Shown here piece by piece: positions 112-42,457 of a stretch of 64,000 nucleotides of DNA. How positions within the stretch are numbered: the stretch's first letter is position 1; the number at the start of each line of letters is the position of its first letter. The notes below the pieces were generated by a model that worked only from the letters and a program-made list of their open reading frames with translations, searched no databases and was not told the DNA's origin. Location of the stretch: assembly GCA_006384855.1 (NCBI GenBank), contig VCJN01000544.1, positions 285,001-349,000 of the forward strand, written 5' to 3'. The position numbers and the translations under genes are program-made. The DNA is from Tetraselmis striata. Its lineage: Eukaryota > Chlorophyta > Chlorodendrophyceae > Chlorodendrales > Chlorodendraceae.

Positions 112-3100
112 GGCCTCACGTGCCCCGAGTTTCCGCCGCCCGTGACCCGCCACTGGGACGATGACGAGCTCTCGGTGCTGAAGGCCACTGACACCAGCGA
201 CAGCGCCTACTTCTGGCCCATGAAGGCCAAGTGAGCTCCCCTCCCCTGGTCTCCCTGCCCCAGGAGCCGCCTCCCTCTCCCTTCTTGCCTCAACTCTTGC
301 GCGGCCTCCATGGGGGAGTCCCCCCACCCCCCCCCTCCCCCTCTGCGCCCGGTTACCCACGTACCCAGCCTGAGAGGCTTCGGCGCTGCGCAGGCCATCC
401 GCCGGCCGGAAGAAGTCCCGGCATGCGTCGGACATCCGCGGGCTGGTGCTGGGCGACGCGCTGTCGTGCGACCTGCCCGTGGACGCCACCACGCTGCGGC
501 ACCAGAAGTCAGAGGAGGTGGCGACCGTGCGGCACGCCTACCAGTCCGCGCCGCCCACGCCCTACATCGCTTACCTGCGCCAGGTGAGGTTCCGGGCGAT
601 GGTCACAGCGGGGGGAAGAGGGGGGCGGGGGGGGGGGGGGGCTGGGAGGCGCACGCCCGCTGCTGGACCCCGGCAGGCTGCAGGGACCCGGCACCCGCGC
701 GGCGGCGGCATGCGTCCCCATGCACCGACGCATGTGGCTGCCATAGTGGCCTGAGCTGTCGGGTGCGCAGGGCGCGGACGACACGCACGTGGCCAACCAC
801 TGCATCTACGAGCTCGGCTTCAGCGACCAGCTGCGCTGCAACCTGGTGCCGTACCGCCGCGACGCCGGCTGGCGCGACATGCCCGCCGCGCACGACGAGG
901 AGCTGTGCTACATGAAGGCGCCCATGGCCATGAAGCTGACGGAGAAGCAGTACACCGACAGCGCCATCAGCAGCTCCATCTGGTCCCGCCAGCTGAAGAA
1001 GATCCCCGCCTTCATGATCAAGGCGCGCCACCACCACCGCCGCGCACCACGGGCTCACCTTTGCCCAGCTTGTCACCCCGGGTCCGCGCCCCTGCAGCCT
1101 TCCCTCGCGCGCACTGTCTGGCCCTGACGATGGCCCGCCTTCTGGTTTGCAGGGCGGGGAGGCCGCGCGCGGTGCCTGCCGCCTCGGGCAGCTGCCGGAG
1201 CTCAAGGAGGGGTGGGAGCTGAGGGAGCAGCGCTTCCCGCTCATCCCCTACTGGTGCCTGACCATGAAGCAGGGCAAGGTGAGGCTGCCGCTGCCGCACG
1301 CCGGCGGATGCTCTGCATGCCCTCGCCGCGGTGCCGCCGATGCTGACGGACTGACTGACGGACTGACTGACTGGCGCTGATGTTGACCGATGTGCTGGCC
1401 GGTTTGCCTGGCTCGGCAGGACCACGACTGCTACGGGCGCCTGTGGTACAGCGACCCGCACCCCACGGTGCACTCGTACCACAAGCCGCACTGGCACCGC
1501 AGCCTCGTGCCCTTCGCGCCCCGCGTGATGACCGTGCGCGAGAAGGCGCGCATCCAGGTGCCTTTCCCTCTAAAACGCCCCCCCCCCCGCCCCCCCCCCC
1601 CCCCCCCCCCCCGGCCCTTTCCCCCTCTCCCTGCCCGCCCCTTTCCCCCTATGTCCCCCCCCCCCCCATCCTTCTTGTCTGCGAGCGTCGGCGCGCTGGT
1701 TGCTGTGTAGTTCGGGGCCTCCATCGCCGCGGCTCCTCATCGGCTGGCTCCTTGCCGCCCTCTCTGTGGCCTCCTGACAAAGTTGTGAGAGATTTCCAAA
1801 TTTCAAATTGATCTGCGGACACGCTGCCCCCCCCCCCCCCCCCCCCCCCCAACCCCCCTGCAGGGCTTCCCCGACAAGTTTGTGTTCCACGGGACGCTGG
1901 AGCACCAGTACAAGCAGATCGCCAACGCGGTGTCGCCGCAGCTCACCAAGTCCCTCATGCGCGGGGTGCTCCAGGCGCACGCGCACAGCTGCCTGGCGGG
2001 CGGCGCGCGCAAGGCGGCCGCGGAGCCGCTGGAGCTGGAGTGGTCCAAGCCGCTGCAGACGTTTGCGGACTTTCTGCGCGGCTTTGACGAGGGGAGCCTG
2101 CCCAAGCTGCGGCGCCACGCCCCAAAGAAGCTCGCGCCGCGCGACATGCCGCAGCTGGAGCCCATGACGTACACCGAGGTGCGCGGTGTCCCCCCCCCCC
2201 CCTTTCCCCCACCTCCCACCCTTTTCGGAGTGCATGCCGGGAGCCATGGACATTGACACGCGCTGATGGAGCATCGGCACTGCTCGCTGGGCATGCCCGG
2301 ATGGCCATCTTGAGGGACGAGGCTGACATGATGCTGCCGGTGCTGGTGCCGCTCGTGCGTTTTGGCGGGCAGATCATCGTGGAGTACAACACCGAGTGGC
2401 GCAGCGACCACTCGACGCGCTACGAGAAGCTGGCGCCCTTTGAGCTGCTCACGATGGTGGAGTCGAACCACATGTGGCACTCGGAGAGCATTCAGGGGCT
2501 GCGGGTGGTCAAGCCCGCCGGCTCCCCTGGCTACCTCACGGAGGTGGCCATCAAGTACCGAGGTCGCTGCCAATCCCCCCCCCCTCCTGCTAGGCGCCAG
2601 CTATTCAACGGATGGGGGAGGCGGGGGGGGAGGGGAGAGGGTCCCCCGAAAACACTTCTCTTTGCTCTTCTTGCCCCCCCCCCCCCTCTGCTGTGCTGAC
2701 CCGTTGACACCCCCCCCACCCCCCCACCCCCGGGCCTCGCCAGGCTTCCCTGTCACGGAGTGGTACGATCTGGACACCCACATCCGCAAGCTGCACTGCT
2801 ACCAGGACTTCCTGGAGGAGATGGGCGAGGACATGTTCAAGCAGGTGGGGGCCTGAAGGGGGGGCGGGGCGGCATTGCCTGCCTGAGTTCCCCCATTGCG
2901 AGGTCCAGCCTCCAGTGCCACGGAATGGGTCTCCTGCGGCTGCGTGCGTGTGATCGTCACACTGACACTTGCGCGTCCCCTGCAGGTGTGCGCCGGGAAG
3001 GTGATGGCTCGCCTGGCCAGGGCCGACCCGGACGGCGGGCCCTGGGAGGCCCTGCTGGAGGACGTGGTGCCCCGGGAGCTGAGGCAGCCCAGCGGCGAGC

Positions 3101-11917: not shown

Positions 11918-12518
11918 ATGCTTGAGCCAAACAGTTACATGAGCTAGCTGCAAAAGGCGATTACGAAACCACCCGAAAAGGCAATAGAATACGTCTACAT
12001 CTGTATATAGCCATCTTACTACATGGTAGGGTAGGGTACTACTGTTGCTGGCCTTACGCGGAATACCGCAGTAGTATCAGTAGTACCTCGTTCGATGTAA
12101 TCCTTATCTTTATACTATTGTAAATATAAATCAATGAACTAATTTTGGTCGTCGTACATATAGCGACTAGTAGCATCTATCTAAATTATAGTATTATGTG
12201 TATTATCTCTGTCTCCATTATAATAGCCGCTAGTAGGAATATTCGTCGAATCCAGCGTGTGCACAGACCGAGCAGGCGCCGGTGGTACGCGTGTGCTGCC
12301 GTGCGGCGATACAGGGTATTAGTATTGTCCCGTGCGGGCGAGCCTTCCGCGGGCGGGCCGTCGCGTCATATTTCGTCGCTCGTGCGCAGCCTGCCTGATG
12401 TTACGAATTTTCGCGTCGTCCGACTGGATATGTCACGCTGCGCAGACCTGCATGGAATTACTTCCGCAACTCGCTTCATTTTCAGCGTCGTCCTATGCGG
12501 AGGGGTAAGACAGCCACC
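11918..12518. other. Upstream region of the cation ATPase
   Basis: Holds the promoter and 5' UTR of the ATPase gene. 11935-11990 is related to the dispersed repeat seen at 23019, 24237 and 24658 (CATGAGCTAGC followed by AAGGCGAT). No TATA box could be chosen with confidence. Confidence 0.4.
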
Positions 12519-15500
12519 ATGGCGCAATCTCACGAAGACACTAAGGATCACAAGCACTACCACCTTATGGCCCCTCAGGAGGCCTACGACATTGTTGGCG
12601 GTACTGAAAAGTCGAGCGAGGAGTGGGTGAGTAGTCAGCGCGAAAAGTATGGCGAGAACAAGCTCAAGGAGGCCGAGACCCGATCGCTTCTGGCAGTCAT
12701 CGTCAGCAACTTCCTTAACCCCGTCACTGCCATCCTCGGCGCCGTCCTCGTCCTTGCGTGCATTCTCGAGGAGTGGATCGAGGCTGTCGTGGTGGTGCTG
12801 GTTATCCTGCTCAATTCCACCATATCCATCGTTCAGGAGTACAAGTCCGAGCAGAGCATGGACGCCATCCGCCACCTCGGCGGGGCCACGAACACTACTG
12901 TCATCCGCGACGGACGCGCCCAGCAGATCCCCCTCACCGACGTTGTCGTGGGCGACATTGTCGAGATGAAACAAGGAGACGTCGTCCCCGCGGACGTGCG
13001 CCTCATGGAGGTGCGCTCCTTCGCGAAAGAGCACTCAGAGCAGGCAGCACAAAACAATTGCAGTGGCATCTGTACGCATCACCACACACTATGCATGCGA
13101 GCGATTAGACGATTCCCAACATCGTCTCGTATTATCTCGCATCGGCTGCGGAACCGCCCCCTGCCTTACAGTCGCTCCGGCTCTTCGGAGCGACCCTTGA
13201 CTACAACTGCTATGGTTCCCTGGATTGAGTGCGCCGAGTCTGAAATTCTAGGTTCTGACGCTGCTCAAATCCTTTGGCACTGCAGTTGAGTCGCCTGGAG
13301 GTGGACGAGGCCGCCCTTACTGGCGAGAGCGTGCCTGTCGTCAAGACCTTGGCGGCCCTGCCTCACCCTAAAGATCCCGACGAAGATATCGCCGTCGGCG
13401 ATCGCACCAACATGGCATTCCGCCAGACCAGCGTCGCCCAAGGCAGCGGCCGAGGTCAGTGGCCGCCCTCCACGCAGCCGCTCATCCCCGCCTTCCCGCG
13501 GACCCCAGCAGAACCCGCACTTCAGAATTTCCCTCAGACCAGCAAATTCGCTTCGTGACTCAAAACAGTGCCGCGCGATGTGCTATGCTCGTCCAACGAA
13601 CAGTGCATGCATCCACTCTCTAGATGCCGTATCCATTGCGGTTACATGGTATTCCATTGATTTCCTCCCAACTCTTGCCGCTTCCTTGGTTCGGCTGCGC
13701 AGGTGTCGTTGTGTTGGTCGGTGAGGAGACAGAGATTGGCAAGATTGCAGAGCGTCTCGCAGGTGGCACCAGCAAGAAGACTGCCCTGACCGTCACCATG
13801 GAGAAGCTCATGTACTTCCTCGTACTGGTCGGCCTCGTCTTCGGTACGTTACCCCCAAAAGACTTGCTGGCGGTCGCACCATTTGCCAGTGATAGAATAA
13901 TAAAGATGTTTTGTAATTGCCATCCAACGCTGTAGTTAGTCCTTAATCCTTGCCTTGGGGCTGCCTTCTCTCGCAACGTGCAGCCATATTCATCTTCTGG
14001 GCTTTCGACTGGGACGTCACCGACCAGGCTCTGCTCTACGCCTCTGCCACCCTGGTCGCCATCTTACCTGAGGCTGCCATCGTGCTCATCACCGTCACCA
14101 TGGCCATCTCCGTGAAGCGCATGGCGGCGGCCAACGCCATCGTACGCAAGATGACTGCCCTCGAACAGCTGGGAAAGGTGACGGACATCTGCTCAGACAA
14201 AACTGGCACCCTCACTGAAGGTGCGCCAACCCCCACCCCTATCATGTATCGACAGACGCCTTCCGTGAGTGAATTCATACAGCCATGGAGTCGGGACGAT
14301 AAGAAACCATGACCATTAGTTAACATCAGCATACTTTCAATGGGTACTGTATAGGCATTTCGTATATGGGGGGCGAGGCACATATAACCTTTAGTATAAC
14401 CCTCAAATCGGGGTTGCATGCAATGTATGGGGACATACGCCACTGATCTGCTATAGCTTCGTCCACATTTAGCATCTGGCAAGCAGGGCGGCGTTATTTG
14501 CAGTGTACTAATCACTTTGTTGGCACTCTTATTGATACAATAAATCCTAATGGGGTTTTAGGCCAAGCTTGGTGAGAGGATTTTGGGAAACCCCGTAGAT
14601 GTAAAATGCACGGTGCTGAATGCGGCGATATTTGTCCTGTGGCCTGCAGGCAAGATGCGCCCCGCAAAGTTGGTGCTGTGCCAGCCCAATGGCGACCCGC
14701 TGTACACGCTCACGCCTCAGGGCCCGGCCAACAGCCGCAAGGCTGAGTGGTCCACCCCTCTGACTGACCTGGAGGGCGAGGGCCCCACCACCATGGGCGA
14801 CGCCCTGCGCGCGCTCGTGCTGTGCAGTAGCACCAGCATGGTGCAGGTTGGCGGGGAGGACTCGGATGACTTGGAGGGCCACGGCTCGCCCACCGAGCTG
14901 GCAATGATGGAGATGGCATGGAAGATCACCTACGGCATGAAAGATGTCGTGCCCAACATAGATGCCGCCAAGAAGGGCTACAAGATGCGCGGCACCTTTG
15001 ACTTTGACTCCATGACCAAGACCATGAGCACCGGCTGGTTCCATGCTGAGAGCGGCACGAGCCTGGTGGCCGTGAAGGGTGCGCCGGAGTCCATCCTGCC
15101 CCGCTGCGGCAACCATCCCGATGCCAGCTCCGACCTGATGAAGATTATGGACGATCTCGCTTCCGATGGCCTGCGCATGCTGGCTGTCGCGCAGCGCACC
15201 GACATGGACCTGTCCGCGGAGGGCGCCGACATCACCTCCATGGAGCGTGACCAGGTCGAGCACAACCTCCGTCTGCTCGCGCTCTGCGCGGTCCGTGACC
15301 CGCCCAAGCAGTCTTCCATAACGGCCGTCACGCATTGCTTCTCCGCCGGCATCGTCGTCCGTATGCTCACCGGCGATCACCCTGCGACGGCAGGGGCTAT
15401 TGCCAAGGAGATTGGCATTATTCCCGAGGGCCAGGCCGCCAAGGGCACCGTCACCACTGGACCCAAGATGGACTCCATGACAGATGAGGAGCTTGACGAG

Positions 15501-19300: not shown

Positions 19301-21117
19301 ACGCAGCTAGAATGGTGCGTTTTTTGTGAGATAGCCCAATTACGCGATATCGCTCGGGTGCATATCTCAGTACGTTCCGCTGTGCACACCATCCGTGCGA
19401 TACTCGCAGTGATATTCTCGGTTGAACACTGCTGCGACTGCTCCGTCATGCTCGAGGGCGCCCGGAAACGGCCGAGGACCTTGCTGCAGCTCATCAGCAC
19501 CTCTGCGCCCTACATGCGCTTAGAGAAGGGGGCACCGCCCCGGCCGTCTCACCGAGCCGAGACATGGCCGTTCGTTAAACTAGTTGAAAGAATTCCTAGC
19601 CATACCGGTTTAGGGTTTTTAAAACCTAAACCAGACCCCAAGGGTTGCCGCACGAGGTCAGAGATCACGCTGAGATGCGCCCCCGATGGCGCCCCACGGC
19701 GCCCCGCACCCGCGACATGCGCGGCTATTTCCTCTCGTCGCCCGGAAATACGACCTCGCCTTAGACTCTCGCGGGCGAGAGATTAAGGCTTGCCGATATA
19801 TCCAACCGTTGCGCTCAGCAGGTAGGTCTCATAGCTACCCGGAGAGTCCCCGAACGCTGTCGTTGACCCCCATCCGTGGCTGGGTCATGTGTGTTTTCTT
19901 CGGCACGGCCCGGATTAGTGGGGTTTCAACCACCCCGTGCACCACAACACCCCCACGCCCCGGCTTAGCGCTATCCCACAAACAAGCTGAAAGAGGTTAT
20001 AGGTACGGTCAATGGCTCCCCCTGGAGCCCTTCAGCTCCCGGCCTAGTGCGATGGTGATGGTGCCCCCCACTGCGTCGCGCATCAACCAGCAAACCGGAA
20101 AATATTTTCTGAATAACCGACTCGCGTCACACACGGACGCGCCGCCGAGCGACATACTCTTAGATAGCCAGCAAGATTACGTAGGGGGTAGGTATGGTCC
20201 CAAGCATGTAGGCAGGAGCTGCGGGCCATACAAGCTTAACGTGTCGTCACGCACGAGTGGGAGCCAGTAGGGCGTCCCGAGCGACTCGATAGTTTCCGAG
20301 ATCGGGCGGCGGCTTCGGCGTCCTCTGGTGAGTCAATGCGCAAGCACCCGGCCCATCAACCGGCCTCAGCCCAAGCCTTAGTCATAAGAGGCCCGGGGAC
20401 TACTCACATGGGCCTCAAGACGAGCCAACTTGTGCTCACCTCGAGGTCAATGGCAGCTACCCCAATGGGTAGGGCGTGGGTGGGGCGGGCGGTAGTGGTT
20501 GGGGCGGGATTTGTTCGGGTCATTTCGTATACGTTTCGGTTATCGCTACATGACCTCGAGTAGTCGTAAATGACAAGGAATAATGTACTACTGGCCGTGC
20601 CGTGAAATGAGAATAAATTCGACGGATTGGAACATATATCGGGCATATGTATCTCTCACAAATTGTATTAGAGCTCAATTCGTTTAGCGTAACGCCAGGT
20701 TCCTTCATTATGTGCATATTCTCATTGACATATCACACTTGATGGGAAAGAGCATGGTTTGCACAGCATTCATCCAAATATACATAATTTGAATGCACGA
20801 TCGGAGTACTATGACAAATAAACATTTTTCAGAGATATGCTTGTTTCCCCTTTTACTCCGGCACCGCTTTATTAATATCTACTTTTGACCCTCGTACAGA
20901 AACGTATGACTTCAAAGGGTTTGCTTTGCAATTGATTGATTTATGCGCATATACATATTGTACAATTTTACACAGCTCATCACCATTTGCAAACAATTGC
21001 AATGTACAACCAAGCAACACGTATGCATATACATGTAAATAATGTGTTCATGATGTTCGATTAAAGAAAACAAAGAAATACCTGCGCTCCGGAGCCTGGA
21101 ATGGCTAGCTATATGGC
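19301..21117. other. Gene-poor stretch
   Basis: Open stretches exist on the plus strand (19208-19786, 19686-20270) but overlap in different frames and show no recognisable domain. A TTTAGGG-containing palindrome sits at 19608-19633. From about 20570 the sequence becomes AT-rich. No gene supported. Confidence 0.35.
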
Positions 21118-21275
21118 ATAGAGCCAAGCAAAAATCCAAAGTTGATCCACAGTTGATCCGAAGTAGGTTGGCCAAAGTTGAAGCATGGACTGGCTTATTA
21201 CTTGCTCCCGCATTGCGCCAAGCAAAATAATCCAATGAAGTTGACCGAAAGCCGACCAATTATGGAACAAATGCA
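21118..21275. repeat. Second copy of the GTTGACC-type repeat
   Basis: Shares CAAAGTTGA, GAAGCATGGACTGGCTT, GCATTGCGCCAAGCAAA and GTTGACCGAAAGC with 19050-19300, with small indels. Confidence 0.6.
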
Positions 21276-21686
21276 AACGAGAATAAACGACACACTGTTC
21301 CCGGGTAAGTTGCATCCATCGCGCGCAGTTGGGCAGTAGCACTTGTTGTGTTGTCCGAAAAACATTGATTGGTCTTTGCATGTGCCTCTGCGTGGAGCCC
21401 ATTCCTCATCCCGGCAAAATTGCTTCACTAGATGCAACGTATGCCGTGCAACAACAACAATAACTCAATTACTCTAGGCGATGACAATGCTGTCAAGTGG
21501 CGGGGGCAAACGGAAGGGGGGGCGCATCACCTCACAGACGTTGAAATACGTCGTAGTAAAACTAGCGTGGCGGAGCGCGGGTGGCGCAGTGACTCGGGTG
21601 TCCACCGTGTTTAAGGTTTTAAGGTTTCACACGCAATCAGTCGGCACACACATGCCAAATTATGCTCAGCAATACAAACATCACAG

Positions 21687-21866
21687 TCAACGACTCACCT
21701 GGCGGGGGCAAGACAACGCAAGATTGTCAACATAACATCCGAGCATGTCGCCGTCGGACCGAACTCCGCCGCCTTGCTTCATCCACGACGGCCTGAACTG
21801 CTGCACGTTGTCGATGATGACGCTCACGCATACTAACAGAACGGCACCAATCAGTTTCATGGGCAT
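21687..21866 (-). CDS. Small ORF with signal-peptide-like start (doubtful)
   Basis: The minus strand from ATG at 21866 encodes about 59 residues beginning MPMKLIGAVLLVCVSV, a hydrophobic stretch like a signal peptide, followed by a soluble segment with Cys. No further exon was found and there is no homology I recognise. It may be chance. Confidence 0.2.
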   Translation of the reverse strand: MPMKLIGAVLLVCVSVIIDNVQQFRPSWMKQGGGVRSDGDMLGCYVDNLALSCPRQVSR

Positions 21867-35124: not shown

Positions 35125-36750
35125 TCAGTGCATCCCCAGCACAACACCACCAGCCGCCCAGAATGCGCAGCCGCAGACAAGGAGGACGACAGAGTTGACC
35201 GCCAGCTTGAAGTTGTCCCGGCCGGGCACAGCCGCAACCTTCAGCGTGACCGTCAGCTGGAACAGACGGTACGAGGTGAAGATGTAGACCGCGGTCACCA
35301 CCATGAAGTTCATCAATGGGTACTGCGGGATCACCTCGAGAAGGCCAATGGGCTGGCCGTCTGGGATGCTGGAGGACAGCCAGTTGTGGAACTGGCCGAT
35401 GTAGGTCTCCAGCGTGATGCAGCCCAGCCACCCGAACACGCCCAGGGAGAAGGTGCGCATCGTGGGCGTCAGGTTGCGCAGGAAGATCCACACCGTGATC
35501 GGGATCCACGACGTGTAGGGGTGGATGGCATTGTAGGCGTACTTGTCAAGGGTGAACACGTGGTTGTACCAGAGGGTGCCGACGGTGAGCGCAGCGCCGA
35601 GGACCGCAGTGCGGATGGCATAGCGCGCCGCGACGCTCATGCTGTCCACGCTCTGCATCCACGCCTGCAGGTAGGGGTGCGCAAAACCGCAGAGCATGCC
35701 ATACACCCAGATGTAGCGATCCAGGGAGGACCGGAAGTACCACTCGTGCATGTCGTCGTCGCCGGGGCGGCGAGGATCCGTGTAGCCCACCAGCCACTTG
35801 AAGGGTGACCACACGGCGTAGAACACCTCCTTGATGTCCCAGAAGATGTAGATGAAGGCGAAGCTGACCAGGATCTTCCCAAAGAGGGTCCACTGGTTCT
35901 CGTTGAGTTGGGGGCAGATGGCGAGGGCGGCGTACACAAACACCGTGAACAGAGTGTGCATGGGGCAGATGTAGTAGAGCATGTACGAGTTGTTGAGCAG
36001 GATGCAGCAGAAGAACACCAGGAAGTTGAGGCGCCACATCATCTCTGCAAAGCGGCCCAGCGAAAAGTCCTTGGACTTGTAGTAGTACAGGAAGTTGCCA
36101 AAGCCGGTCATCCACACGTAGGCAGAGATAAAGACGCGGATCGCGTTGTACATCTCACGGGCCTCAAAGTAGTGGTACAGCAAGAACAGCACTTGCATCC
36201 AGCCCTTCCACTCCTCCGTCTGGAAGCGGTTCAGCAGCACCGGCGTCTTCCACACTTTCGTGAAGGTGGAGAAGGAGTAGATCACCAGCAAGCTGTAAAC
36301 AAAGAAGAACACATCGCGACTGTAGGCCTTGGTGCCCTCCGGCAGCAGCGCAGTGCGGTCGGCGACGAAGAACCACATCATGAGCGTGCCGAATTCGGCC
36401 ACTGCCCAGATGTACGTGCGGTTGCCCAAAAGCGAGGGCACGTCCAGGCGCAGACACTTAAAGAGGTCGCAGCCGATGATCTCCCCGGAGAAGCTGCGCG
36501 CGCGCGGCTTCCCCTCAACCTGGTCCGCATCTGCACTGCCCTTGGCAAGCTTTTGCTTCTCGGGCGATTTTCCGGAGGCTTCCGAGTCGTGGCCGCCGTT
36601 GGCAGTGCTCAAAGCCTTGGTCAGCTCGGTGGCCCCGAGCAGAAAGAGCGACAGAGCGTAGGCGATGAAGCAGCCGACCTGCGCCGAGGTAAGCGGCGCA
36701 GCCCCGGCGAGCTCGCGCAGCTCGCGAAACACGGAGTACTGGCCCTCCAT
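35125..36750 (-). CDS. RWA: RWA/CASD1-type polysaccharide O-acetylation protein (CAS1 domain)
   Basis: Intronless 541-residue multi-pass membrane protein. Needed for O-acetylation of polysaccharides or sialic acids in the Golgi: in plants RWA proteins supply acetyl groups for cell wall polymers. Seen: an N-terminal membrane helix (about residues 20-45), a charged linker (60-100), then the CAS1 block with at least nine hydrophobic segments. Signature stretches include EWKGWMQVLFLLYHYFEARE, AYVWMTGFGNFLYYY, then DRYIWVYGM and a C-terminal VFGWLGCITLETYIGQFH. It lacks the N-terminal esterase-like domain of animal CASD1, as plant RWA proteins do. I chose the ATG at 36750 because the resulting length matches plant RWAs; the frame stays open to 36840 with another ATG at about 36798. 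It is the only intronless host gene in the window. Confidence 0.88.
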   Translation of the reverse strand: MEGQYSVFRELRELAGAAPLTSAQVGCFIAYALSLFLLGATELTKALSTANGGHDSEASGKSPEKQKLAKGSADADQVEGKPRARSFSGEIIGCDLFKCLRLDVPSLLGNRTYIWAVAEFGTLMMWFFVADRTALLPEGTKAYSRDVFFFVYSLLVIYSFSTFTKVWKTPVLLNRFQTEEWKGWMQVLFLLYHYFEAREMYNAIRVFISAYVWMTGFGNFLYYYKSKDFSLGRFAEMMWRLNFLVFFCCILLNNSYMLYYICPMHTLFTVFVYAALAICPQLNENQWTLFGKILVSFAFIYIFWDIKEVFYAVWSPFKWLVGYTDPRRPGDDDMHEWYFRSSLDRYIWVYGMLCGFAHPYLQAWMQSVDSMSVAARYAIRTAVLGAALTVGTLWYNHVFTLDKYAYNAIHPYTSWIPITVWIFLRNLTPTMRTFSLGVFGWLGCITLETYIGQFHNWLSSSIPDGQPIGLLEVIPQYPLMNFMVVTAVYIFTSYRLFQLTVTLKVAAVPGRDNFKLAVNSVVLLVCGCAFWAAGGVVLGMH

Positions 36751-37672
36751 TCTGTGGGATGCAGACCAACGCACGTCGGGATCAGCTACCGGGACCATGG
36801 AGCCAGAAAGTATTTGAGCAGGCGGTCGCGGGAGCGCCAAGCGGCTTACGAGACGTCACATCGGGTCAGGGCGGCGACATGGTCAAGGTGAACAACCGGC
36901 CCGAGTCTATCAACCGGCCTCGCCCAAGGGCACTAGTCAACAACGCAACGACTGGGCTCTGAGCTGCGGACACCATAGCTTCGCGGAATCTCGGGTATCA
37001 ACGTGCGGTTGCCGCCGACGGGCTGCTTGGCTGCTTCAGGCTATAACGACTTGGATGGGAGATGCAAATTCGAGGCGCCCGGCGGGGCGCGGGGGCGGGG
37101 GCGGCCCGCACTCCGGGGGAACGTGCGGCGGGCCTTTGGGGCCCCGCAGAAAGTTGGCATCGTAATTCCGCCCTGCGGTAGCCAGAGTCACGCGCCCGGG
37201 CCCACAAGCCTAGGTAGGAGCTGATTTAGGGCAGTTGGTGGAGGTCGATGTATCGCGCGGCGAGAAACGTTGACCACAAAGAATTGGGCAGTTCCACTGA
37301 GTCCAGAGGCGAGCAGTACCCGACTATTCGCGCCGACTTTTTGCAGTGAAGCTACGGGCGGGGTGGTGCGGGGAGCACAGACGGGTGGAGATGAACGAGG
37401 TCAGCACCTGAGGGTTGCGGTGCTTGCTGCACCTCGGGGTTTGCCTGGCTGACCAGGGCAGGTGCAGGGCGGGAGTGGCGACTGTTGAGCAGACGCGCCT
37501 GCTGTCCAACGGCTGAGCCTTGGGTCCTTGACCAACTGTCGCGACGGCTTGCTCGCGGCTGGGCGGGATGAACAGGGGTGCGCGCAAAAACCGCGGGGCG
37601 TCGTACTCGTACCGCCAGCAGTAGTCGCAACTACATTCAGTGATACAGGTTGGTATATGCCGATATACACCT
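36751..37672. other. Upstream flank of the RWA-like gene
   Basis: Contains the RWA-like promoter and 5' UTR and runs up to the copia target site. No gene supported. GGGCGC-rich patch at about 37075-37110. Confidence 0.35.
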
Positions 37673-38154
37673 TGTTGGACCCAGGGTACCCCGGTACCCT
37701 GAATCCGTTTTTTCTCTCTGTGAAATCCGCATTTTTCTGGCTGCCGTACCTGTGCCTAATTTGGACCTTATGGCAGCAGTACGGCACCAAAGCATGGCAC
37801 CTAGGCATCTTTGCCAGTTGGCCCTCTTAGACGGAGAGGTGTCCGTCGTAATTGACACCTAGCCGGCTGGTATAAATTGCCAGCCTCGGCTCCTTGTAAT
37901 TCAGTCAACTATTTTTCCAGAAATATTCCGACTCACCCTTTCTCTCTCGTGACAGTGCCACTCAGCCATCACCACGGCGACAGCGACTACCTATCGTCCA
38001 TCGCCCACGGCTCATAGCAGCCCTTTGCCTTTCCAGCTCGCACCTTGCTTGCTGGCACTCGACGTGATTCGACGCGTGCACGCCGACTCTCGCCGACTCT
38101 CCCCCCATCAGTGACAGTGCCACTCAGCCATCACTTCGACAATCCCCTCCGACA
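37673..38154 (+). repeat. 5' LTR of the copia-type element
   Basis: 482 bp, TG...CA ends; TATAAAT promoter box at 37871-37877. Contains an internal direct repeat: GTGACAGTGCCACTCAGCC appears near 37953 and again near 38111. Confidence 0.92.
37871..37877 (+). promoter_or_regulatory. TATA box of the 5' LTR
   Basis: TATAAAT in the sequence GGTATAAATTGCC, at about position 199 of the LTR, a reasonable place for the U3/R promoter. An identical copy is in the 3' LTR near 42170. Confidence 0.6.
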
Positions 38155-38344
38155 GGTTTTTGGGCCCTCTCCTTTGGTTCGACGTCTTGCCCCGTGCTCG
38201 ACGCCTGCCAGAGGCTTCAACCTGCGTGTATCTCGACCCTCGACAACTTTCGACGACCGACGGCGCCGTGCGACGAGTTTTTCTTCCCACCCGCCCATCC
38301 CTACAGTTATACGTCCTCCATCACAAGGGCGCCATCCCTTCGCA

Positions 38345-41300
38345 ATGTCTACCAGCATCAACACCGGCATGATGAACACTTCCCTGGGCAATCTGGCTCG
38401 GCAGAGTGCGATCAAGACCGACCCTGGCGACGCCCCGCCACCGCCTCACTTCCGTAATGATACCAGTTCGTCTGACGACGCCTTCAGCATGGACGAGGCA
38501 TCAGACAGTGACTCAGGTGACATCCAGCATATCAAGCCAGCTGCAGTGAAGCCAACACTCAACCTCAAGAACGTCCCCATCTGGGACAACACCATCTCTA
38601 CGCGGGACAACGCTCAAGCTATCAAGATCGCTCTCGGCAGCGCCGGCTACCTGGACACCACCAAGGGCAAAGGCACCCGTCAGGAACAAATGATGCTTCT
38701 GGCAGCCCTGCGCCACGCGACGGCGCATTATCCCATGGCACTGGCCATCGTCAACAGCATCAGCATGGACTCCAGGAAGTGTGGATATGCGGCCTGGACG
38801 GCCCTATTTACTGAACTCCAGGGCTCGGCCATAGAGGAGCGCAGGCGCTTGGAGGAAGAAATCACAGCAGGCCAGCTCCCGAATGAGCCGGTCCAGGTGT
38901 ACGTTCGCCGCTGCCGGAACCTCTGGAACTTGTTGCGCAAGGCACATGGCCAGTGGACATTCGAGTACGTGGCCATCAACTACCTCATCCCAGGACTTCA
39001 CCCAGCATACGATCACATTGTGGACGCCACCATCCCGGCAACCAATGTCACCAAGCGGCTGGCAACCATCATAAGTGCCGGACAGAACATGGAGGCGCGC
39101 ACGCGTCAGCGTCAGCAGCGCGCCCGTTCACGCACGCCAACCCTCAATTCCTGCGACCCCAGCGACCAAATACATGCCATCAGGCCCAACATCGTCTGCA
39201 GCAGGTGTGACCGTCCAGGCCATGCTCAGCATCAGTGTTTGGCCAGGCGCCATGCCAACGGCCTCCGTCTCCTGGGTGACACCGCCCCACCCAGCACCGT
39301 GAACAACCCTAGCTATGGTCACTATCAGCGCGCGCCTGCGGAGCGTCACGTCAACGACAACTATACCAACAACCTGCGCAACGACTACAACCATCAAAAC
39401 AGCCCCCAGCGGCAGCAATATTGGCCCACCCAGAGCGACAACGACAACCTGCAGCGCCATCACCAGCCATTTGGCTTCGTCTCCCCGGCCGGACATCACC
39501 ACTACGGACATCACCCGGCTAGCAACGACTCTGACCAGCAGCCGACAGGATGCCAAGAGGCCTACCCGTTAATGGGTGTGTCCTCGTTGGCACCACACCA
39601 CAGCGGCCTGCCCGTCATGCTCACCTGCACCACCACCGCCCCAGGAGGGGCAGCCACCGGAGCGCAGGAGGGGGAGGGCGAGGACGACGACGATGAATTT
39701 CATGAATCCTGGCACGTCCCCTACTCCAACTCTGACGACAACTTCCAGTGCCCGTTTTCACACCCATGGCGTGCCCGCCAGCATTTCCGCTCTCAACCTA
39801 TTCCCACCCCAATTCAACCTCTATGCCTCGCTTCACCCGCATTCCCAACCTCAGCGGCACTGGCGGCCCACGACGTTCATACGGGGCAGGGCGCCCTACG
39901 TGGAGACCTGCCACCGCCGCTCCCAATACTCACCGCTGCCCCGCTCCTCCATATGCCAAGCTCTTCTTTGGTAATCGAACATCTCTTCTCGCCCTGCCAT
40001 GGCCCATCGGCATTTGAGGTGGAGGCTGTGGTGGAATACGGCTTTTCCATCCACGCGTTCATCGGCGCCGACCCATCAACGGAGGCTCGCACTATGGGGC
40101 CACATCACCTACAGGTCATCAGCAGCAAATATCCGGGCCGCCTGCCTCCATCAGCATTTCAGGACTGTCATGACGAGACCCCCATGAACATCAACGACAT
40201 CACTATCACGGAGCTGGAGCGGCTGCGCCTGTTCACCCTAGTCGTGTCAAGCACACCGTTACAACCATGGTCGCCCACGGGCTCACGCCTTGACTGGCGG
40301 GACCATCGCTCTCGTGCCTTCGCCTCCATCATCAGCTTCACCCGCTTCTACCTGTCTTCTCAGCCCACACCAGTGCGCTATATTGTGCAGAATTGTCCAG
40401 ACGCGCTGGCTTTACCAGAAGTACTCTCCTCATTTGGCGCATGCAACATCGTGCGCGCGGCGTCCTGCGGCTCGGAGGTTCACCGCGACACCCTTCTGTG
40501 GACCATTATCACTCAACCGCAAGACATCCGGAACTGCGGCAACAACGTCGCCGCCATCAAGCTCGCCGACCCCGGCCCCTTCAGTGGCTGCCGCATCTAC
40601 AACCCGGCTACCGGGCGCAAGACCCCGCCTCTCTCTATGCCGGCCTTTCAGTTCTCCAACGCTGACTACCTGATGGACGCGTTTCAACCCTCGGGCCAGC
40701 AGGAGGGGCCCCATGTACCGCCACCCATGCTGCCATCGGCGGCGCTTGCTTCGCCGCAGGAGGGGCCCCCACCTCCACATCACACCGAGCAGCACCCTCC
40801 GCACCATCAGGAGGGGGACGCCACGGCCCTGTCGGCTCCTAACACCAGCAAACAGGCACAACTGACTTCCCACTTTGTCGACCTCAGCGACTACCACCCA
40901 ACACTGGTGGCATCCGCGATGGCGGCGGTTGTGCGCCCCCGCTCAGCGCGGCTGACAGCCCTCGCCCTACCAGCACCCACTGCCCGCGTGTCCACGGCGC
41001 CGCGCAACTATCAGGAGGATATCTCCAGCACTCGCCCCAATGACTGGAAGAAGTCCGTGAACCATGAGATTAACTCTATCACTACGATGGCACTTTTCGT
41101 CTGGATCAACGTCCCTGAGTTTCGATGCGACAACGAGTCAGCGGTCATCCAACAGACGGCGTGGGCCTTTGCGGCGCAGCACGAGGATGGCAACATCAAG
41201 CGCGAGGCCGGCGTGATCGTTTGCGGCAATCTACTCATCACCAGCGAGACCTATGCCTATGACTACCTCCCCCTCGGCTGTGGCCATAAGGACCGGGCTT

Positions 41301-41725
41301 GGCATCCCGTTGAGGCACTCTACGACCTGCCGCAGGCATCCAAGGCATGGTTTCTGTGCTTTCCTTCCTTTCTACATGACTTCGGTTTCATCAGCTCAAA
41401 GCCGGGCAGCGTGATCCATCTTCATCGGGAAACCTGCATCGTTGACATTCTGACTACCTTTCACATGACGGAGAGCAAGCCTCGCCGCCTGCCCTGCACG
41501 CTGAATGCCAACTTTCATAACACTGCAGTCACCTACCGTGCGCAGGTTCGGAGGCAGCGTGGCCATGTCTACTGCCGCAGCGGAGTTTGTGGCGCTCTGC
41601 GTGGTCTGCACATGTCTGGCCGTTATTCGCGTTCTTCTACGCCAAGCTCTGCCACCCCACTGCTGCCCCGGTGCAAGTATGCGGGGACAACCGCGCATGC
41701 ATCGTTCAGGTGCAACATGGTATGA
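38345..41725 (+). CDS. Copia-type polyprotein: gag, zinc knuckle, C5-methyltransferase-like domain, broken reverse transcriptase
   Basis: 1126 residues from the first well-placed ATG after the 5' LTR; the frame is open upstream into the LTR. Residues ~70-260 form a copia gag (UBN2-like) domain (VRRCRNLWNLLRKAHGQW). 285-298 are a CX2CX4HX4C zinc knuckle (CSRCDRPGHAQHQC). About 300-530 is low complexity, rich in His, Asn and Pro. About 540-740 resembles a cytosine-5 methyltransferase: motif I-like HLFSPCHGPS, then IGADPSTEA; motif IV-like TPLQPWSPTGSRLDWRDHRS; motif VI-like YIVQNCP; motif VIII-like EVHRDTLLWTI. Leu639 stands where the catalytic Cys belongs, and QNC replaces ENV, so activity is unlikely. 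From ~897 come RT remnants (NDWKKSVNHEI, ALYDLPQASKAWF) without a YVDD site. No integrase or protease seen. Confidence 0.75.
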   Translation: MSTSINTGMMNTSLGNLARQSAIKTDPGDAPPPPHFRNDTSSSDDAFSMDEASDSDSGDIQHIKPAAVKPTLNLKNVPIWDNTISTRDNAQAIKIALGSAGYLDTTKGKGTRQEQMMLLAALRHATAHYPMALAIVNSISMDSRKCGYAAWTALFTELQGSAIEERRRLEEEITAGQLPNEPVQVYVRRCRNLWNLLRKAHGQWTFEYVAINYLIPGLHPAYDHIVDATIPATNVTKRLATIISAGQNMEARTRQRQQRARSRTPTLNSCDPSDQIHAIRPNIVCSRCDRPGHAQHQCLARRHANGLRLLGDTAPPSTVNNPSYGHYQRAPAERHVNDNYTNNLRNDYNHQNSPQRQQYWPTQSDNDNLQRHHQPFGFVSPAGHHHYGHHPASNDSDQQPTGCQEAYPLMGVSSLAPHHSGLPVMLTCTTTAPGGAATGAQEGEGEDDDDEFHESWHVPYSNSDDNFQCPFSHPWRARQHFRSQPIPTPIQPLCLASPAFPTSAALAAHDVHTGQGALRGDLPPPLPILTAAPLLHMPSSSLVIEHLFSPCHGPSAFEVEAVVEYGFSIHAFIGADPSTEARTMGPHHLQVISSKYPGRLPPSAFQDCHDETPMNINDITITELERLRLFTLVVSSTPLQPWSPTGSRLDWRDHRSRAFASIISFTRFYLSSQPTPVRYIVQNCPDALALPEVLSSFGACNIVRAASCGSEVHRDTLLWTIITQPQDIRNCGNNVAAIKLADPGPFSGCRIYNPATGRKTPPLSMPAFQFSNADYLMDAFQPSGQQEGPHVPPPMLPSAALASPQEGPPPPHHTEQHPPHHQEGDATALSAPNTSKQAQLTSHFVDLSDYHPTLVASAMAAVVRPRSARLTALALPAPTARVSTAPRNYQEDISSTRPNDWKKSVNHEINSITTMALFVWINVPEFRCDNESAVIQQTAWAFAAQHEDGNIKREAGVIVCGNLLITSETYAYDYLPLGCGHKDRAWHPVEALYDLPQASKAWFLCFPSFLHDFGFISSKPGSVIHLHRETCIVDILTTFHMTESKPRRLPCTLNANFHNTAVTYRAQVRRQRGHVYCRSGVCGALRGLHMSGRYSRSSTPSSATPLLPRCKYAGTTAHASFRCNMV

Positions 41726-41895
41726 TTACATGCGCGCAACGCCACATTGACCTCCGGTTTCAGTATGCGGCCCAACTCTACTAAGACGGCATCATCTACA
41801 TGCACTACACGCCTACCCCGGCCCACCTGGCCGACTTCTTCGCTAAAGCGCTGCTGCTGACTACCTTTCTTCATTTCCGCGCTTTCCTGATGGGG
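41505..41895 (+). pseudogene. Frameshifted RNase H / C-terminal end of copia pol
   Basis: Past the main ORF the copia C-terminus continues in other frames: VAMSTAAAEFVALC (RNase H, usual form STAEAEYVA) in the 41505 frame, then CAQRHIDLRFQYA and HYTPTPAHLADFFAKAL (usual HIDIRYHF and T..Q.AD..TK.L). At least two frameshifts and one stop. Confirms Ty1/copia affiliation. Confidence 0.8.
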
Positions 41896-41971
41896 TCATC
41901 CGAGGAGCCCCGTGTTGCGCCTCTGCCGCCATCAGTCTTGCGCCCGCGGGATTCCACAGGATGAGGAGGGG

Positions 41972-42452
41972 TGTTGGACCCAGGGTACCCCGGTACCCTG
42001 AATCCGTTTTTCTCTCTGTGAAATCCGCATTTTTCTGGCTGCCGTACCTGTGCCTAATTTGGACCTTATGGCAGCAGTACGGCACCAAAGCATGGCACCT
42101 AGGCATCTTTGCCAGTTGGCCCTCTTAGACGGAGAGGTGTCCGTCGTAATTGACACCTAGCCGGCTGGTATAAATTGCCAGCCTCGGCTCCTTGTAATTC
42201 AGTCAACTATTTTTCCAGAAATATTCCGACTCACCCTTTCTCTCTCGTGACAGTGCCACTCAGCCATCACCACGGCGACAGCGACTACCTATCGTCCATC
42301 GCCCACGGCTCATAGCAGCCCTTTGCCTTTCCAGCTCGCACCTTGCTTGCTGGCACTCGACGTGATTCGACGCGTGCACGCCGACTCTCGCCGACTCTCC
42401 CCCCATCAGTGACAGTGCCACTCAGCCATCACTTCGACAATCCCCTCCGACA
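41972..42452 (+). repeat. 3' LTR of the copia-type element
   Basis: 481 bp, same sequence as 37673-38154 apart from one T fewer in a homopolymer. Confidence 0.92.
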
Positions 42453-42457
42453 CACCT

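Follow-up and report, generated by a model that had tools for sequence, protein, structure and literature searches.

Does a retrotransposon of the green alga Tetraselmis striata carry a DNA methyltransferase (DNMT), and which of its copies could make use of it? The 64,000-nucleotide stretch of DNA analysed here (the window) raises this question through an element at 37673-42452, for which an earlier note had claimed a recent copia-type insertion with a cytosine-5 (C5) methyltransferase-like domain. We analysed this element and searched the genome (a 224-Mb assembly of 2903 contigs) for its relatives.

Anatomy of the window element

The element belongs to the Ty1/copia class and is young. A target-site duplication (TSD) CACCT was found on its left (37668-37672) and right (42453-42457), and comparison of the LTRs, both with TG...CA ends, delimited a 5' LTR of 482 bp (37673-38154) and a 3' LTR of 481 bp (41972-42452; these and all following features of the element lie on the + strand). 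The claim of exact LTRs and TSD is correct for the TSD, but the LTRs differ by one 1-bp indel, with zero mismatches over the 480 bp compared. Near-identical LTRs and CACCT on both sides confirm that the element is a recent insertion. A 5-bp TSD, which together with TG...CA ends characterises Ty1/copia elements, was present in all 16 two-LTR elements (14 long copies, L033 and the window copy), and five of the 16 had LTR pairs that were identical over the part compared.

The ORF list and profile comparison revealed an open frame (38345-41725) containing Gag, a truncated DNMT-like domain and a Pol remnant. The Gag CCHC zinc knuckle CSRCDRPGHAQHQC (39197-39238) was recognised in the sequence; its match to Pfam zf-CCHC was below the cut-off (E 0.09-0.15). 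The methyltransferase-like domain (39968-40579), delimited by alignment, fold and profile, comprises motifs I to VIII only and is followed by a deletion junction (40580-40582). Alignment to the polyprotein of a long relative covered residues 1-909, then 1460-1823 and then RNase H pieces in other frames; residues 910-1459, with DNMT motifs IX-X, the protease and the integrase core, are missing at the junction. The remnant behind it (40583-41461), which shares about 50% identity with the long polyprotein, holds the C-terminal part of the integrase and the reverse transcriptase (RT) and stops before the YVDD motif, and an RNase H remnant (41644-41961) is shifted into another frame. A polypurine tract GAGGAGGGG (41963-41971) was found by eye in the sequence; a primer-binding site of the window element was not identified. 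Without its own protease, integrase core and RT active site, on which autonomy depends, the window element is non-autonomous and derives from a long family by deletion.

Identity and position of the methyltransferase-like domain

About 204 residues after Gag and the zinc knuckle follow the order of C5-methyltransferase motifs, and all motifs were found where the earlier note had placed them in the sequence: a I-like motif (39983-40009), the IV-like motif PLQPWS (from 40256), the VI-like motif IVQNCP (from 40382) and a VIII-like motif (up to 40501). A profile HMM made from seven domain rows of other families, with no sequence of family A, to which the window copy belongs, scored the window frame at 132.4 bits (E 2.4e-39 in a set of 2001 sequences), compared with 8.0 bits for the best of 2000 shuffles. 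The window copy alone matched Pfam DNA_methylase weakly (E 0.018; 14.9 bits at a cut-off of 22), and its best match among PDB sequences was a DNMT2 chain (E 0.1); an intact relative exceeded the Pfam cut-off with 36.8 bits. In the sequence-profile ranking against PDB, M.HaeIII was best, followed by DNMT2, with DNMT3A weaker. The AlphaFold2 model of the window domain (pLDDT 71, pTM 0.69) matched DNMT3A/3B in all 50 Foldseek matches listed (best E 6.5e-6, TM-scores about 0.5). For the model of the intact L040 domain (pLDDT 74, pTM 0.79; best E 2.3e-11), the 50 matches listed were 47 DNMT3, one M.HaeIII and two Dnmt2, with moderate TM-scores.

Profile search, structure prediction and a genome search for family members, by which the earlier note had proposed to check its claim, thus all led to C5-methyltransferases, the last by detecting the same domain in a fuller form. 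Given motifs I to VIII in order and a match to the Rossmann-like fold of this superfamily, the window domain is, as judged by sequence and predicted structure, C5-methyltransferase-like, and this identification is far firmer than the mechanistic step proposed below. The weak database scores of the window copy alone might speak for a chance resemblance in motif order or a damaged integrase. Chance is ruled out by the profile score set against the best shuffle, and a misread integrase by the long copies, whose integrase is separate from a domain that exceeds the Pfam cut-off in intact relatives; we give this reading practically no credence.

The LTR search detected pairs about 6.84, 6.51 and 4.3 kb apart (40 of 356 candidates scored), and the domain search of the genome at least 151 matches (150 of 394 candidates scored). 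Annotated proteins labelled jgi/Tetstr1 TSEL are up to 99% identical to the long relatives, and this Tetraselmis label fits the chlorophyte-type genome that had been presumed from the letters. Five of the 14 long copies read have an uninterrupted frame of over 2000 codons, and in two of the 14 the domain frame is broken (a stop in L042, a shift in L029). The long polyprotein L040 shows the order Gag - DNMT (703-1025) - protease - integrase - RT - RNase H. Its RVT_2-type RT follows the integrase (order PR-IN-RT-RH), whereas the window copy holds remnants only. Motif IV PPCQ and motif VI ENV were found in all 14 long copies and a IX-X-like end in the L040 alignment; the domain of the long relatives thus has the catalytic PCQ, ENV and motifs IX-X expected of an active C5-methyltransferase.

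The earlier note had placed the domain where the integrase is expected. This position does not hold for the long relatives, in which the DNMT domain sits between Gag and the protease and is additional to the integrase. In the window copy, the deletion fuses what is left of the domain to the sequence that follows the integrase core.

Decay, selection and mosaic origin

In the window copy, PCQ is replaced by PLQ (40256-40264) and ENV by QNC (40388-40396). Across the short family, the window's copy included, 17 of 20 copies have Leu for the catalytic Cys, which is kept in three, and the Glu of ENV is lost in all 20. L033 was excluded from the motif counts of short and long copies, since its frame breaks inside the domain. 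With motifs IV and VI degraded and IX-X deleted, the window domain should not be an active methyltransferase; an active enzyme in this copy was ruled out. TR-GAG-type non-autonomous LTR elements keep their LTRs and a Gag frame, have lost Pol functions and are presumably mobilised in trans; unlike these, the window derivative has in addition retained Pol remnants and a dead DNMT-like domain.

Summed pairwise NG86 dN/dS values in the short family (20 copies, 190 pairs) rose from 0.52 in Gag and 0.60 in the spacer to 0.71 in the domain and 0.86 in the downstream part. A shared-variant test, in which variants found in at least two short copies are compared with a mutation-class-matched neutral expectation, gave ratios of 0.60 for Gag (P 0.0125), 0.64 for the spacer (P 0.09), 0.83 for the domain (P 0.28) and 1.19 downstream (P 0.72), and ratios of 0.80-1.10 for singleton variants (P values of both sets uncorrected for eight tests). 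Omega of family A domains against L040 was 0.17-0.37 in all but one of 11 comparisons, the exception being 0.52; ten further domain pairs (within-family or C-C) gave 0.20-0.48, and L052 against L055 gave 0.25 at a dS of 1.7; several long-family rows in this set are broken copies, with stop codons left out. For the window against the long lineages, domain omega was 0.52-0.64, and in the domain tree the end branch of the window row measures 0.4, that of other family-A rows at most 0.11. Omega and shared-variant ratios together indicate that the domain is under purifying selection in the long families, where it is intact, and drifts near neutrality in the window's family, with weak selection possible. 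As the window domain is degraded and without clear selection, any role in methylation would fall to the long relatives, and the earlier note's suggestion that such a domain could help an element to control or mimic host methylation would apply to these rather than to the window copy.

The DNMT of the long elements could nevertheless be a passenger without benefit, kept only through the polyprotein frame, as the abundance of DNMT-less Copia elements in the genome and the missing methylation trace (see below) would allow. Upkeep of a frame needs no amino-acid conservation, yet omega stays low in 10 of the 11 family-A comparisons and, at high dS, between L052 and L055, and the catalytic motifs persist across families, which makes such a passenger very improbable. 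For the short family, one may think of a dead DNMT3L-like partner, kept in order to guide an active DNMT, either that of the long family or the host's own. Of the 20 best domain-search matches, 11 have a frame that stays open for over 1000 codons, the shared-variant point estimate for the domain is below 1 and the window model matches DNMT3 folds. This estimate is, however, indistinguishable from neutral (52 shared changes), whereas Gag of the same copies is somewhat constrained at a P value uncorrected for eight tests; moreover, the C-terminal third of the domain is deleted and the end branch is long. We regard a partner of this kind as very unlikely.

CpG decay as a trace of self-methylation was looked for and was absent: singleton transitions affected 56 of 516 CpG, 48 of 447 CHG and 86 of 1012 CHH sites, with no CpG hypermutability, and CpG depletion was slight (0.89 versus 0.93). 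These copies therefore bear no trace of heavy methylation. DNMT5a and DNMT6 are reported for Tetraselmis species in the passages on this genus in PMC9998398, so a host methylation machinery exists in the genus.

The window copy is a mosaic of a short-family body and a partly long-family LTR. Between 38468 and about 41870 it is 99-100% identical to the short copy L010 (in 200-base bins), and row alignment located the switch from short-family to long-family sequence at 41873-41910. Its LTR lacks two 11-bp stretches common to the short copies L010, L012 and L018, matches the long copies L030 and L040 at 96-99% and, between about 42084 and 42146, resembles the short copies once more. The short copy L033 likewise has a long-type LTR. 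The alignment comprised six rows, and the 5' end was read in a minority of the short copies. The mosaic is consistent with template switching between RNAs packaged together; alternatively, gene conversion could have made the mosaic LTR.

We consider the following course of events very probable. A Copia lineage in Tetraselmis striata would have gained, between Gag and protease, a C5-methyltransferase whose fold resembles that of DNMT3, and would have diversified into at least four families, with selection keeping the domain in full-length elements. The window copy, which keeps LTRs, polypurine tract and Gag frame, would be a non-autonomous derivative with a catalytically dead, decaying passenger domain, presumably moved by proteins that the long family with matching LTRs supplied, and short and long RNAs packaged together would have allowed template switching. 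The DNMT of the long elements is probably cut from the polyprotein and may enter the particle; it would then methylate either the element's cDNA or the chromatin at the insertion, from which the element would profit. This mechanism is proposed because of the purifying selection and of the activity in yeast of DIRS domains, the only ones for which such activity is shown in the passages of PMC5890265 on these enzymes.

Spread of the domain and comparison with known systems

Domains 27-39% identical to family A were found in Copia families B (L053, L071-L073) and C (L052, L055-L058) and in L054, and family D (L077) groups with family C in the domain tree. L054 (316-1320, contig C2687, in a 3505-aa frame) is a probable LINE-type element with its DNMT domain upstream of RNase H, so called since an RNase H match just below the cut-off follows the domain and since it groups with P0010 and P0056. 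In Tetraselmis striata, a DNMT-like domain is carried by four or more diverged Copia families and by one probable LINE. In the domain tree, from which host DNMTs were left out, rows group largely by element class, and Tetraselmis Copia A-D form one group with a support of 94/96, just short of the program's mark. A single group of all Gypsy rows was weakly rejected (p-AU 0.037; 24 rows, including P0058 of unassigned class), and one of all Copia rows was neither shown nor rejected (p 0.46). Long families show a domain in the element's own frame, many copies and purifying selection, and the window's family the first two of these. With the Copia polyprotein P0057 as query, all 38 contigs among the matches listed hold the DNMT and the protease-integrase part, a count that is biased because the query holds both parts and 38 of 1120 candidates were scored.

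The DNMT-less Copia L076 encodes 1561 aa in the order Gag-PR-IN-RT-RH, and frames of this length are common among the 150 RVT_2 matches scored. Such elements with long open frames thrive in this genome, hence the domain is not needed for retrotransposition. On contigs C1776, C440, C805, C1137, C411, C1303 and C1435, DNMT-less Copia with the 1561-aa frame is densely clustered, each contig having many copies; these clusters may be nested or centromere-like arrays.

Further methyltransferase frames were observed in the genome. Within the window, a frame at 1789-2256 (+) contains a C5-methyltransferase motif X (FPDKFVFHGTLEHQYKQIANAVSP...); its match to Pfam DNA_methylase (1858-1962; 29.9 bits, positions 286-320) probably marks an exon of a host DNMT gene starting upstream of the window. 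A standalone full-length C5-methyltransferase (L075, 2441-3415 on contig C776) scored 155.5 bits, and similar 325-aa frames lie on contigs C1993, C1647, C2337, C355 and C1455. The frame beside it had no Pfam match; we take it to resemble the protein-primed DNA polymerase known from Polinton-like viruses. Contig C1230, which also carries Copia RVT_2 matches, has three similar C5-methyltransferase frames of 341 aa (12031-12849, 21042-21860, 35476-36294).

Among database polyproteins, the Copia polyprotein P0057 has a related DNMT domain in the same Gag-DNMT-PR-IN order as the Tetraselmis long copies. The Gypsy polyproteins P0009, P0051-P0055 and P0059-P0073 also have a related domain but differ in carrying it elsewhere in the polyprotein and in an added PHD finger; with P0009 as query, RT-RNase H Gypsy-type domains and a PHD finger were detected in 20 of 24 proteins among the matches listed. 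Tentatively, and with some doubt, one may propose a retrotransposon-specific methyltransferase lineage that moves between Copia, Gypsy and LINE-type elements; one gain between Gag and protease would have founded the Tetraselmis Copia radiation, and non-autonomous derivatives would lose the catalytic part and use a trans-supplied enzyme or none.

In its passages on retrotransposons, PMC5890265 describes LINE, DIRS and Gypsy elements that encode DNMTs and states that the Copia elements of Symbiodinium lack one; the Gypsy and DIRS carriers recur in the corresponding passage of PMC6338049. Of the prior LTR-retrotransposon cases invoked by the earlier note, the charophyte one is real in PMC5890265 but is Gypsy rather than copia. 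This element, KnitGypsy-Dnmt3 of Klebsormidium nitens, resembles the Tetraselmis elements as an LTR element of the green lineage with a Dnmt3-related domain in the Pol polyprotein under purifying selection, as described there; it differs as a Gypsy element of a charophyte, whereas the Tetraselmis elements are Copia, have the domain between Gag and protease and include degenerate copies that are non-autonomous. SymbioDIRS-Dnmt3 and SymbioLINE-Dnmt of Symbiodinium, in the same account, are likewise many-copy retrotransposon DNMTs, with the probable LINE-type L054 as a Tetraselmis counterpart, but belong to other element classes and hosts than the Tetraselmis Copia. One sentence of 2025 in PMC12344493 names LTR Copia as DNMT3 carrier, citing the 2018 paper (PMC5890265), whose LTR case is Gypsy; the passages concerned describe no Copia element, and Tetraselmis is absent from the text of the article. 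In the main texts of open articles, which the literature search covered, no description of a DNMT-bearing Copia element came up for Tetraselmis or any other chlorophyte.

Few retrotransposons with a DNA methyltransferase of the silencing type have been published, namely the dinoflagellate LINE and DIRS elements and the Gypsy element of one charophyte in the cases given by PMC5890265. The Copia case in a chlorophyte presented here comprises at least four diverged families, young copies, DNMT-less Copia neighbours and derivatives with a dead domain, and widens the rare known set of genomic parasites with a DNA-marking enzyme. As one genome offers natural plus and minus sets, what the enzyme does for the element may be addressed directly by a methylome.
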